Below are positions 62,735-64,000 of a stretch of 64,000 nucleotides of DNA, piece by piece; positions within the stretch are counted from its first letter, which is position 1; every line of letters begins with the position of its first letter. The position numbers and the translations under genes are program-made. Source of the stretch: Flavihumibacter fluminis (GTDB lineage Bacteria > Bacteroidota > Bacteroidia > Chitinophagales > Chitinophagaceae); contig NZ_JAKEVY010000003.1 of the NCBI RefSeq assembly GCF_021491375.1, forward strand, positions 372,001 to 436,000, in the 5' to 3' direction. A model generated the notes under the pieces. It ran no database searches. It was not told where the DNA came from and saw only the letters and a list, made by a program, of their open reading frames with translations.

Positions 62735-62781
62735 GGAAGTGAGAAGTGAGACGTGAGAGGTGAGACGTCAGAAGTGAGAAA
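62735..62781. repeat. Dispersed heptamer repeat, locus 11
   Basis: GTGAGAA-GTGAGAC-GTGAGAG-GTGAGAC-GTCAGAA-GTGAGAA on the plus strand: six consecutive heptamers with fixed G, GA and A positions. It lies between the beta-barrel gene start and a minus-strand terminator. Confidence 0.9.
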
Positions 62782-62783
62782 TG

Positions 62784-62812
62784 AAAAAAGCCCCTCAGTG
62801 AACGGAGGGGCT
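62784..62812 (-). terminator. Terminator-like hairpin, minus strand
   Basis: AGCCCCTC ... GAGGGGCT eight-base stem with a seven- or eight-base loop; on the minus strand it is followed by a T run. It stops transcription coming from the tRNA-like RNA side or from a short transcript in 62813-62892. Confidence 0.75.
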
Positions 62813-62892
62813 ACCTAACAGCTGTAAACACACACATGAGAAAAAACAGTGTGTACCAATGGCATGCAATCGAAACCGATGCGGCGGTACAA
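62813..62892. other. 80-base segment between two terminators
   Basis: It contains an inverted ACACAC ... GTGTGT pair (about 62829-62856). No ORF or promoter is evident. It could be a small transcript on the minus strand or a leftover spacer. Confidence 0.35.
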
Positions 62893-62921
62893 AAAAATCC
62901 CGCGTTTAGGCCGGGATTTTT
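62893..62921 (-). terminator. Bidirectional-looking terminator after the tRNA-like RNAs
   Basis: AAAAATCCCG-CGTTTAGGC-CGGGATTTTT is a perfect ten-base inverted repeat. Read on the minus strand it begins a few bases after the 3' end of the second tRNA-like RNA and ends in a T run. Confidence 0.85.
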
Positions 62922-62926
62922 AAATG

Positions 62927-63119
62927 CTGTAGGGGGAGGAGTCGAACCTCCACGGGGCAGTTAGCCGTAGTACAATGCTTAGTGGTCAACCCTGGTCGGC
63001 TTTATTACAGTCCAGTTTGCACTGAACAGCAATACCAGTCGGCTCTATGCTACGTTTATCCTGTAATCCCCACCCTCGAGACGAGAGGGCATGTCTGCCA
63101 AAAATTTCATCACCCCACA
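62927..63119 (-). ncRNA. tRNA-like structured RNA with giant variable arm, copy 1
   Basis: 193 bases, minus strand. Acceptor TGTGGGG (63119-63113) pairs with CCCTACA (62934-62928), discriminator G at 62927. D stem ATG/CAT with loop AAATTTTTGGCAGA; anticodon stem CCCTC/GAGGG (63089-63085, 63077-63073) with loop TCGTCTC; T arm GGAGG-TTCGACT-CCTCC, perfect. Loop position 33 is C, not the near-universal U. Between the variable stem halves GGGG (63071) and CCCC (62957) lie 110 bases containing CAG/CTG, CGTAG/CTACG, CTGGT/ACCAG and a hairpin TTCAGT-GCAA-ACTGGA with a GNRA loop. No CCA is encoded (CAT follows). It differs from copy 2 at paired sites by compensatory changes. No known tRNA identity fits. 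Confidence 0.75.
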
Positions 63120-63146
63120 GTGTAAAGAGCAACTATTAAAAGTTGG

Positions 63147-63263
63147 CTGTAGGAGGAGGAGTCGAACCTCCACGGGGCAGTTAGCAAGTTTTCACTTCTT
63201 TGTCCTGTAATCCCCACCCCCGAGACAAGGGGGCATGTCTGCCGAAAATTTCATCATCCCACA
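63147..63263 (-). ncRNA. tRNA-like structured RNA with large variable arm, copy 2
   Basis: 117 bases, minus strand. Acceptor TGTGGGA (63263-63257) pairs with TCCTACA (63154-63148), discriminator G at 63147 and an encoded CCA at 63146-63144. U8, A14, G18-G19, A21 and the T loop TTCGACT are all present. D stem ATG/CAT, anticodon stem CCCCC/GGGGG with loop TTGTCTC (GUC in the anticodon place, but U at 37). The variable arm is GGGG-ATTA-CAG ... CTG-CCCC, with 34 bases between the GGGG and CCCC and a hairpin AAGT-GAAA-ACTT (63197-63186). The D arm resembles tRNA-Leu; discriminator G fits Ser/Sec better. It lies first downstream of the promoter at 63289-63321. Confidence 0.78.
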
Positions 63264-63288
63264 GTATGTTCTAAGAACTTTGATAGTG

Positions 63289-63321
63289 CAAACATACAGC
63301 AAAAGGCCAATTCATTGCAAA
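63289..63321 (-). promoter_or_regulatory. Promoter of the tRNA-like RNA pair
   Basis: On the minus strand TTTG at 63321-63318, 21 bases, then TATGTTTG at 63296-63289: a full match to the Bacteroidota TTTG / TAnnTTTG promoter. Expected start is about 20 bases before copy 2. The opposite strand leads to the AsnC-type gene. Confidence 0.75.
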
Positions 63322-63405
63322 TATTTCAAACAAAATTTAAAATATATTGAAATCATTCAAATAATTGTATATTGCAATAGAATTTATCAAAAAATACTTT
63401 CTAAA

Positions 63406-63873
63406 ATGGCTGGAAAATTGAATTTAGACAAACTGGATTATCAGATTATCCAGGAGATGATGGAAAATGCCGAAACTTCCTATGCTGATTTGGGTAAAAA
63501 GTTATTCGTTTCCGGTGGAACCATACATGTCCGCATCAAAAAATTGCAGGAAATGGGCATTGTAAAAGGGAGCCGCCTGAATGTAGACCTGAAATTACTG
63601 GGGTACGATGTAATTGCCTTTATTGGTATTTACCTGGAAAAAAGTTCGCTGTATGACAATGTTGCGAAAGAGCTGAGCAAGATTCCAGAGATTGTACGGA
63701 TGAATTATACAACTGGTAACTATAGTATCCTCGCGGAGATCATTTGTAAGGATATCAACCATTTAAGAAATGTATTGCATGACCAGTTACAGAAAATAAA
63801 GGGAATTGAGCGAACCGAAACCTTTATTTCGCTGGATGAGAGTTTGAACAGGAATGTGGAAGTACGGATATGA
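63406..63873 (+). CDS. Lrp/AsnC-family transcriptional regulator
   Basis: 155 residues from the ATG at 63406; the longer frame to 63235 begins inside an RNA gene and is rejected. An N-terminal HTH (LDKLDYQIIQEMMENAETSYADLGKKLFVSGGTIHVRIKKLQEMGIV, given as pieces: LDYQIIQEMM, then SGGTIHVRIKKL) is followed by an Lrp ligand-binding domain (VIAFIGIYLEKSSLYDNVAKEL, YTTGNYSILAEIICKD, ETFISLDESLN). It responds to amino acids or related metabolites in this family. It is divergent from the tRNA-like RNA locus, with the RNA promoter in the shared spacer. The stop is followed directly by repeat locus 12. Confidence 0.93.
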   Translation: MAGKLNLDKLDYQIIQEMMENAETSYADLGKKLFVSGGTIHVRIKKLQEMGIVKGSRLNVDLKLLGYDVIAFIGIYLEKSSLYDNVAKELSKIPEIVRMNYTTGNYSILAEIICKDINHLRNVLHDQLQKIKGIERTETFISLDESLNRNVEVRI

Positions 63874-63875
63874 GC

Positions 63876-63970
63876 ATGGAAGAGGGAGGAAAGGAAGAGG
63901 GAGGAAGGGATTGTGGAAGTTCTTCTCACGTCTCACATCTGACGTCTCACATTCTACGTTTCACATTTCT
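63876..63970. repeat. Dispersed repeat, locus 12 (strand-switching)
   Basis: The left half is purine-rich (GGAAGAGGGAGGAAAGGAAG), the right half is reversed heptamers: TTCTCAC-GTCTCAC-ATCTGAC-GTCTCAC-ATTCTAC-GTTTCAC. The two halves lie in opposite strand sense. After 63970 I see only about 30 unremarkable bases to the end of the window. Confidence 0.85.
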
Positions 63971-64000
63971 TGTGGTTCTAGGGCAGAAGCCCTATCTTTA

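Follow-up and report, generated by a model that had tools for sequence, protein, structure and literature searches.

The window, a 64,000-nucleotide stretch of a Flavihumibacter fluminis contig, carries two tandem tRNA-like copies on its minus strand. The upstream copy (63147..63264) extends from C-1 to G73 over 118 nt, has a short variable arm and is followed by an encoded CCA (63146-63144), and the downstream copy (62927..63120) extends from C-1 to G73 over 194 nt, has a long, structured variable arm and encodes C74. They score 114 and 121 bits, respectively, with a covariance model of the family described below, and nearly all of the difference in length between them lies in the variable arm. 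The initial annotation had taken both to be complete tRNA-like RNAs, and direct reading together with placement by the covariance model bears this out. Each copy forms a 7-bp acceptor stem, a 3-bp D stem, a 5-bp anticodon stem and a 5-bp T stem, and both contain U8, A14, the D-loop GG, A21 and TTCGACT. The compensatory differences claimed between the copies are likewise real, with pair 7:66 changing from A-U (upstream copy) to G-C (downstream copy) and pair 30:40 from C-G to U-A. The anticodon loop (positions 32-38) reads UUGUCUC in the upstream copy (63222..63228, minus strand) and UCGUCUC in the downstream copy (63078..63084, minus strand); as had been noted, C33 occurs in the downstream copy only, U37 occurs in both, and positions 34-36 read GUC. 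The lack of CCA in the downstream copy had been counted among its peculiarities; only C74 is indeed encoded there, but this is unremarkable for this genome because most of its ordinary tRNA genes that we read encode just the discriminator and C74, which is also the usual arrangement across the RNA family defined below, where a whole CCA is usually not encoded.

ARAGORN called no genes in the window, Rfam 15 gave no family at gathering score in the window, and RF00005 run on the genome itself missed both copies, all of which supports the earlier description of them as tRNA-like but not ordinary tRNAs. When positions 62850-63350 were searched in E-value mode, the Rfam matches were weak: U4atac (24.1 of 53 bits) and two 17-nt fragments of the tmRNA T arm (9.4 of 47 bits). 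Most matches from a further E-value-mode search lay at or close to the terminator. The genome carries a tmRNA, a tRNA-Asp(GUC) and five tRNA-Leu apart from the two copies. The view that the copies are not tmRNA also holds, since they have a covarying anticodon arm and the tmRNA of this genome lies elsewhere. By a simple score, the best match to the body among the genome's 36 tRNAs is tRNA-Leu(GAG) at 30.5, with tRNA-Asp at 27.5, in keeping with the Leu-like body recognized earlier. The single-sequence folding energy is unremarkable (z -1.6, and z -1.5 for a stretch that starts 15 nt inside the downstream copy). Repeats of the GTGAGACGTGAGAGGTGAGACGTC type flank the region at 62738-62785 and 63918-63972 and appear by eye to be roughly inverted relative to each other. 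A separate weak tRNA-like gene (L225, G000:C21:239335-239418; 41.7 bits) is called tRNA-Phe(gaa) by ARAGORN, looks Ser-like and is possibly a degenerate tRNA.

The two copies are embedded in what resembles a self-contained transcription unit. On the minus strand, the order is a promoter-like site of the form TTTG-N21-TATGTTTG (63289..63321), which we take to match the Bacteroidota-type promoter motif, a leader AGTTCTT (63273..63279), which we regard as boxA-like, the upstream copy, the downstream copy and, directly 3' of the latter, an intrinsic terminator-like hairpin AAAATCCCGG...CGGGATTTTTTT (62891..62920). Comparable signals recur at homologous loci: TANNTTTG occurs within 75 nt upstream at 77 of 134 loci, compared with 119 among 2680 random 75-mers, GYTCTT occurs in 49 of 134 leaders of 60 nt, compared with 210 among 5360 random 60-mers, and a run of at least five T occurs within 55 nt downstream at 90 of 134 loci. 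Because no 16S gene was found in the assembly itself, the boxA-like element was compared with 16S leaders from three genomes of the same family, two of which contain GTTCTTTGAAA and the third GATCTTTGAAA.

Divergent from the RNA gene, at a distance of 141 bp, lies a plus-strand gene for a 155-aa Lrp/AsnC-type regulator (63406..63873). The protein scores 63.3 bits with Pfam AsnC_trans_reg and 162 bits with NCBIfam AsnC, which is below the 227 cut-off of that model but the best of the 11 models listed; it is 42% identical to E. coli AsnC, and its best PDB sequence match is AsnC (2cg4). In E. coli, AsnC responds to asparagine, and asnC is divergent from asnA. A divergent AsnC gene accompanies the RNA at 118 of 175 loci when two sets are pooled, namely 93 of 135 loci in a count limited to distances of at most 700 bp (8 of the 42 misses have less than 250 bp of sequence upstream) and 25 of a further 40 named loci, where orientation was taken from coordinates and none was detected at the other 15. 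This arrangement extends to two loci outside the class (L245 and L246). AsnC is the sole neighbour found to recur across families, and among 39 examined loci without AsnC there is no general alternative. Twelve same-family loci share one cluster beside the RNA. At L046 and L047, from two genomes of one genus, a reading frame carrying a GGQ motif, and judged by eye to resemble the ribosome-rescue factor ArfB, lies ~180-670 nt upstream of the RNA.

Homologues of the two copies are numerous. A BLAST search with the upstream copy gave matches at E <= 0.01 in 105 of the 147 same-family genomes, and 30 loci from this set yielded 31 copies. A first alignment of 26 rows, consisting of the upstream copy from the window and 25 rows from 24 loci (L007, L010, L021, L025, L031 and L035 being left out), has 97.5% of cells paired and two-sided changes at 15 pairs; shuffled controls average 7.8 such pairs, none of 500 shuffles reaches 15, and slid controls are far lower. 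With a covariance model built from this alignment, 129 of 345 genomes of the class gave a match at E <= 0.001, many of these matches being 82-92 nt long and resembling ordinary class II tRNAs; by our count from the table, 59 of the 345 genomes, spread across many families, gave a match at E <= 1e-17. Matches of 82-92 nt scoring below ~60 bits were set aside as probable ordinary tRNAs; the four inspected (L264, L265, L267 and L268) are all tRNA-Leu by ARAGORN. A pattern scan of named genomes found at least 120 stretches, 80 of which were listed with names; among the matches listed are Chitinophaga (including Chitinophaga pinensis, where scan and model agree), Niabella, Terrimonas, Pedobacter, Spirosoma, Dyadobacter, Cyclobacterium, Algoriphagus, Saprospiraceae, Flavobacteriales MAGs, one Ignavibacteriales MAG and others. 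The model places the RNA at every one of the 80 listed loci (101 matches) and at all 40 remaining loci (58 matches, including a few fragments). The 99 distinct rows from the 80 named loci, aligned by fitting to the covariance model, have 95.3% of cells paired and 32 two-sided pairs, compared with a mean of 19.6 in shuffled controls, none of 500 shuffles being as high.

With a second model, built from the named-genome rows, matches at E <= 1e-12 were obtained in 41 of 395 genomes from the phylum. Among the 41 are three genomes that belong to another class (f111); two of these have three matches apiece, which in one of the two (G712, locus L245) are arranged in tandem. Another of the 41 (G557; 64 bits, 85 nt) was counted by score, and its match may be an ordinary tRNA. 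When 19 same-family genomes that lacked a BLAST match were rechecked, the RNA was found in one (G075). The two copies are members of a strongly covarying RNA family with a wide distribution in one bacterial phylum, where it occurs in Chitinophagaceae, Saprospiraceae, Cytophagales and Sphingobacteriaceae as well as in a second class. The family is apparently undescribed so far; our literature search, which covered mainly open-access papers, showed no description of it, and the terms that we sought for it are absent from the main text of PMC11109978. Tandem copies also occur in distant genomes, with three at each of L064 (1501-1870), L131 (42-467) and L245 (1344-1775) and five at L151 (311-1052). 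At L046 (900-1400) a full copy is accompanied by two partial duplicates of the variable-arm/T-arm part, and the two 68-nt matches there were accordingly treated as local partial duplicates and not as separate copies. The RNA at L077 lies in the MAG labelled Ignavibacteriales and may be either a genuine member from outside the class or an artefact of binning. We also considered a mobile element and rejected it: the 68-nt 5' part has no match in the plasmid and phage collections searched, there are one to five copies per locus, and the neighbour is often the same.

The body shared by the family has 7/5 acceptor/T stems, a 3-bp D stem and GG and UUCGA loops. Its variable arm has a covarying base, made up of GGGG/CCCC, a 4-nt bulge and a 3-bp helix, followed by an internal loop and a variable helix. 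The arm of the upstream copy (63174..63215, minus strand) comprises the GGGG/CCCC stem, the 4-nt bulge, CAG/CUG, the internal loop GACAAA/CUAA and a small hairpin, and that of the downstream copy (62954..63071, minus strand) has the same base, a longer helix and a tip hairpin containing GGGUUGACCAC. The internal loop has the consensus GAYAAA/CUAA (CTAA in 86 of 87 rows), which we take to resemble the UAA/GAN motif, and long forms end in a hairpin that contains GRUNGACCAC at the tip of the arm (60 of 87 rows). One locus (L263 1501-1577; G203:C23:55338-55414) holds a 77-nt form that lacks the long variable arm, has A34 and is called tRNA-Asp(atc) by ARAGORN; there is no AsnC at this locus. A genome of the same genus (G331, locus L262) has the full form with C34, and AsnA is encoded in both.

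We counted bases at identity positions in 87 distinct rows from the model searches (two 68-nt fragments and identical rows being excluded) and in the named set of 99 rows from the 80 listed loci, for which the scan pattern itself fixed part of the anticodon loop. In the 87 rows, U35, C36 and C38 are each invariant, G34 is present in 84 and replaced by U, C or A in three (L243, L262 and L263), and positions 34-38 read GUCUC in 83. At the acceptor end, G2-C71 and U3-A70 are each found in 87 of 87 rows, and G73 and U1-A72 each in 86, with one N. In the named set, G73 is found in 99 of 99 rows, U1-A72 in 98 and GUCUC in 97, the two others being one GUCCC and L129, which is misaligned there and reads GUCUC by eye. 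Position 33, by comparison, is U in 64, C in 15, G in 4 and A in 4 of the 87 rows; U33 is needed for normal decoding. CA always follows the D-loop GG in the 87 rows, so that there is no base 20a, and G10 is not kept, pair 10-25 being mostly A-U.

According to the part of PMC9976931 that we drew on, the bacterial Asp identity set comprises G10 and the strong elements G73, G34, U35, C36 and C38, with G2-C71 a minor element, and bacterial tRNA-Asp has G1-C72, which aids AspRS. The same portion of that paper gives U1-A72 as a requirement for the amidation of Asp-tRNAAsn and names G1-C72 and U20a as elements that block it (PMC9976931). The RNA has all of the Asp elements except G10 and G1-C72, and it has both features expected of a GatCAB (Asp-AdT) substrate, U1-A72 and the absence of U20a. 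Among the 36 tRNAs of the genome, U1-A72 is found only in tRNA-Asn and tRNA-Gln, and the tRNA-Asn, by reading of its gene, has an extra D-loop U (20a), so that by the amidation rule the RNA should be the better amidase substrate. Together, the Asp-set loop and U1-A72 give the RNA an anticodon end that reads Asp and an acceptor end that reads amidate, with position 33 left free. The 77-nt variant keeps U1-A72, G2-C71, U35, C36, C38 and G73.

We compared 42 hand-chosen genomes, 24 with the RNA (from the BLAST and both model searches) and 18 without it (from the unmatched list), scoring GatCAB by the presence of GatB. GatB is found in 24 of 24 genomes with the RNA versus 2 of 18 without it (Fisher p 9e-10, a value that ignores phylogeny, 9 of the 18 being from one family, f55), and the contrast holds within families f1 (10 of 10 with the RNA, 0 of 2 without it) and f41 (2 of 2 with it, 0 of 2 without it). 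All 18 were included in a laxer search, of 38 genomes in total, that revealed the 77-nt variant in G203, one of the two exceptions, the other 17 staying below 58 bits; the remaining exception, G165, has GatB, and the RNA was not found there even in this laxer search. AsnA is present in 2 of 24 genomes with the RNA and 2 of 18 without it, so that its absence is general and is no evidence by itself. An AsnB-like protein exceeds the cut-off in 20 of the 24 genomes, and thus the RNA need not be the only route to Asn in them; four (G022, G087, G384 and G431) have neither AsnA nor AsnB over the cut-off, and one genome without the RNA (G031) lacks AsnA, AsnB and GatB. A form of AsnB whose match is split into separate segments occurs in 13 of 18 genomes without the RNA and 0 of 24 with it (counted from the table), in frames of 528-578 aa (1204 in G245). 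As reported in the part of PMC4206432 consulted, 18 of 547 genera, Bacteroidetes among them, have AsnRS, GlnRS and GatCAB and no Asn synthetase, and Asn synthesis on tRNA-Asn was proposed for them. Within the section of PMC3927822 used here, 14 Bacteroidetes are tabulated, 12 of which have GlnRS and are without GatCAB. In the genomes with the RNA, GatB may be kept for tRNA-Gln.

Our findings raise the possibility, which we think rather probable, that the RNA does not decode, is aspartylated by AspRS and amidated by GatCAB, and serves Asn supply or Asn sensing under AsnC. The locus would be a two-copy gene for a tRNA-Leu-derived RNA that is transcribed from its own promoter and then presumably undergoes tRNA-like processing and CCA finishing. 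The anticodon loop and G73 would make it a substrate of aspartyl-tRNA synthetase, and U1-A72 together with a D loop without 20a would allow GatCAB to amidate the resulting Asp-RNA to Asn-RNA. With U33 not conserved and a variable arm that is large in most members, the RNA would not be expected to decode Asp codons, so that its Asn, if released, could be used as free asparagine, or could serve as a signal of Asn status. The divergent AsnC would set expression of the RNA by the asparagine level, and the RNA would occupy the place that the asparagine synthetase gene asnA holds in E. coli. In a stronger and more tentative form, which we regard as plausible but would not presume, the RNA may be a dedicated cofactor that receives Asp via AspRS, is converted to the Asn form via GatCAB, never decodes, is under AsnC control and replaces asparagine synthetase in much of the phylum, possibly as the only Asn route in some genomes. 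Counting against the AspRS-GatCAB reading are the absence of G10 and of the G1-C72 of bacterial tRNA-Asp, the loss of G34 in three rows, the AsnB-like proteins in 20 of 24 genomes, the lack of AsnC at about one third of loci, phylogenetic non-independence, a possible service of GatCAB to tRNA-Gln, and the genomes G165 and G031.

The same identity elements, the co-occurrence with GatB and the synteny with AsnC would also be expected if the RNA were an uncharged decoy or sensor that binds AspRS, GatCAB or AsnC and regulates without carrying Asn, and the variable arm, with its conserved internal loop and its motif in long forms, is like a protein- or ligand-binding domain. We nevertheless consider such a role unlikely, since G73 and pairs 1-72, 2-71 and 3-70 are near-invariant, as expected of an acceptor end on which catalysis takes place, and the variable-arm domain is missing from the 77-nt variant, in which the acceptor and most of the loop are kept. 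That the RNA donates Asp or Asn for non-ribosomal transfer to cell wall, lipid or peptide is improbable: a precedent exists in Staphylococcus, where a tRNA-Gly is a non-decoding tRNA that feeds cell-wall synthesis, but here no conserved transferase was seen among the identified neighbours of the RNA, AsnC being the only neighbour that recurs across families. Non-decoding tRNAs in cell-wall synthesis are touched on in the part of PMC8007984 seen.

Recognition of G73 and the long variable arm by SerRS would make the RNA a serine-accepting class II tRNA-like RNA. G73, G2-C71, R4-Y69 and the large variable arm do match the bacterial Ser set, but nearly all rows have A72 in place of C72 and U11-A24 in place of C11-G24, there are two unpaired bases before the T stem, which is the rule for tRNA-Leu, the variable region of the 77-nt variant is short, and the fixed U35, C36 and C38 would be left unexplained; we judge this reading very improbable. 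Least probable is an ordinary or decaying tRNA gene. The RNA has the tRNA fold, with 7/5 stems, conserved D- and T-loop residues and D and T loops like those of tRNA-Leu(GAG), and ARAGORN assigns the 77-nt form to tRNA-Asp; against this stand the strong covariation and near-invariant positions across classes, the failure of ARAGORN in the window and of RF00005 in the genome to detect the copies, the relaxation of U33, and the tRNA-Asp and five tRNA-Leu already present. Several further identities were rejected. The 7/5 stems are not the 8/5, 8/4 or 9/3 of tRNA-Sec or allo-tRNA (RF01852 gives 13.7 of 47 bits on L029), and an eighth acceptor pair, -1:73, is contradicted by A-1, which occurs in 15 of the 99 named rows and 8 of the 87 model-search rows, although Y-1 is common. 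G73 is found where Leu identity requires A73, and the anticodon is not the GUU of tRNA-Asn.

If the proposed aspartylation and amidation of a non-decoding RNA are correct, the RNA would be a cofactor of metabolism set apart from translation, would help to explain why GatCAB is retained in these Bacteroidota, and would tie an amino-acid regulator to a tRNA-like gene. Since only the decoding features of the RNA seem to be relaxed, it would also allow the tRNA features that serve aminoacylation and amidation to be told apart cleanly from those that serve decoding.

Among known systems, tRNA-Asn in the route of non-discriminating AspRS and GatCAB, as outlined in the consulted part of PMC4206432, shares with the RNA U1-A72, G73, a predicted aspartylation followed by amidation and the presence of GatB. 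The RNA differs from tRNA-Asn in its Asp-set loop in place of GUU, its Leu-like body and its structured variable arm; moreover, it should not decode, and its gene is often linked to asnC. With tRNA-Asp it has GUC, C38, G73 and G2-C71 in common, but it has U1-A72 instead of G1-C72, no 20a, no G10 and a class II body, and it keeps neither U33 nor a purine at 37. With tRNA-Leu(GAG) it shares the D arm, the 3-bp D stem, a class II variable arm and two bases before the T stem, and it is set apart by G73 for A73, its acceptor sequence, its anticodon loop and the extra domain. The allo-tRNAs and tRNA-Sec described in the portion of PMC7609411 consulted also have a long variable arm, and GUC is among the allo-tRNA anticodons; those RNAs have 8/4, 9/3 or 8/5 stems and are reported from other phyla, whereas the RNA has 7/5 stems and one conserved anticodon loop. 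A Bacillus cereus pseudo-tRNA and a non-aminoacylable human tRNA-Asp, which we liken to the RNA by their description alone in part of PMC8007984, are likewise tRNA-like with a non-decoding role. Finally, as in the asnC-asnA pair of E. coli, an AsnC-type regulator is encoded divergently, but its neighbour here is an RNA gene and not asparagine synthetase A.
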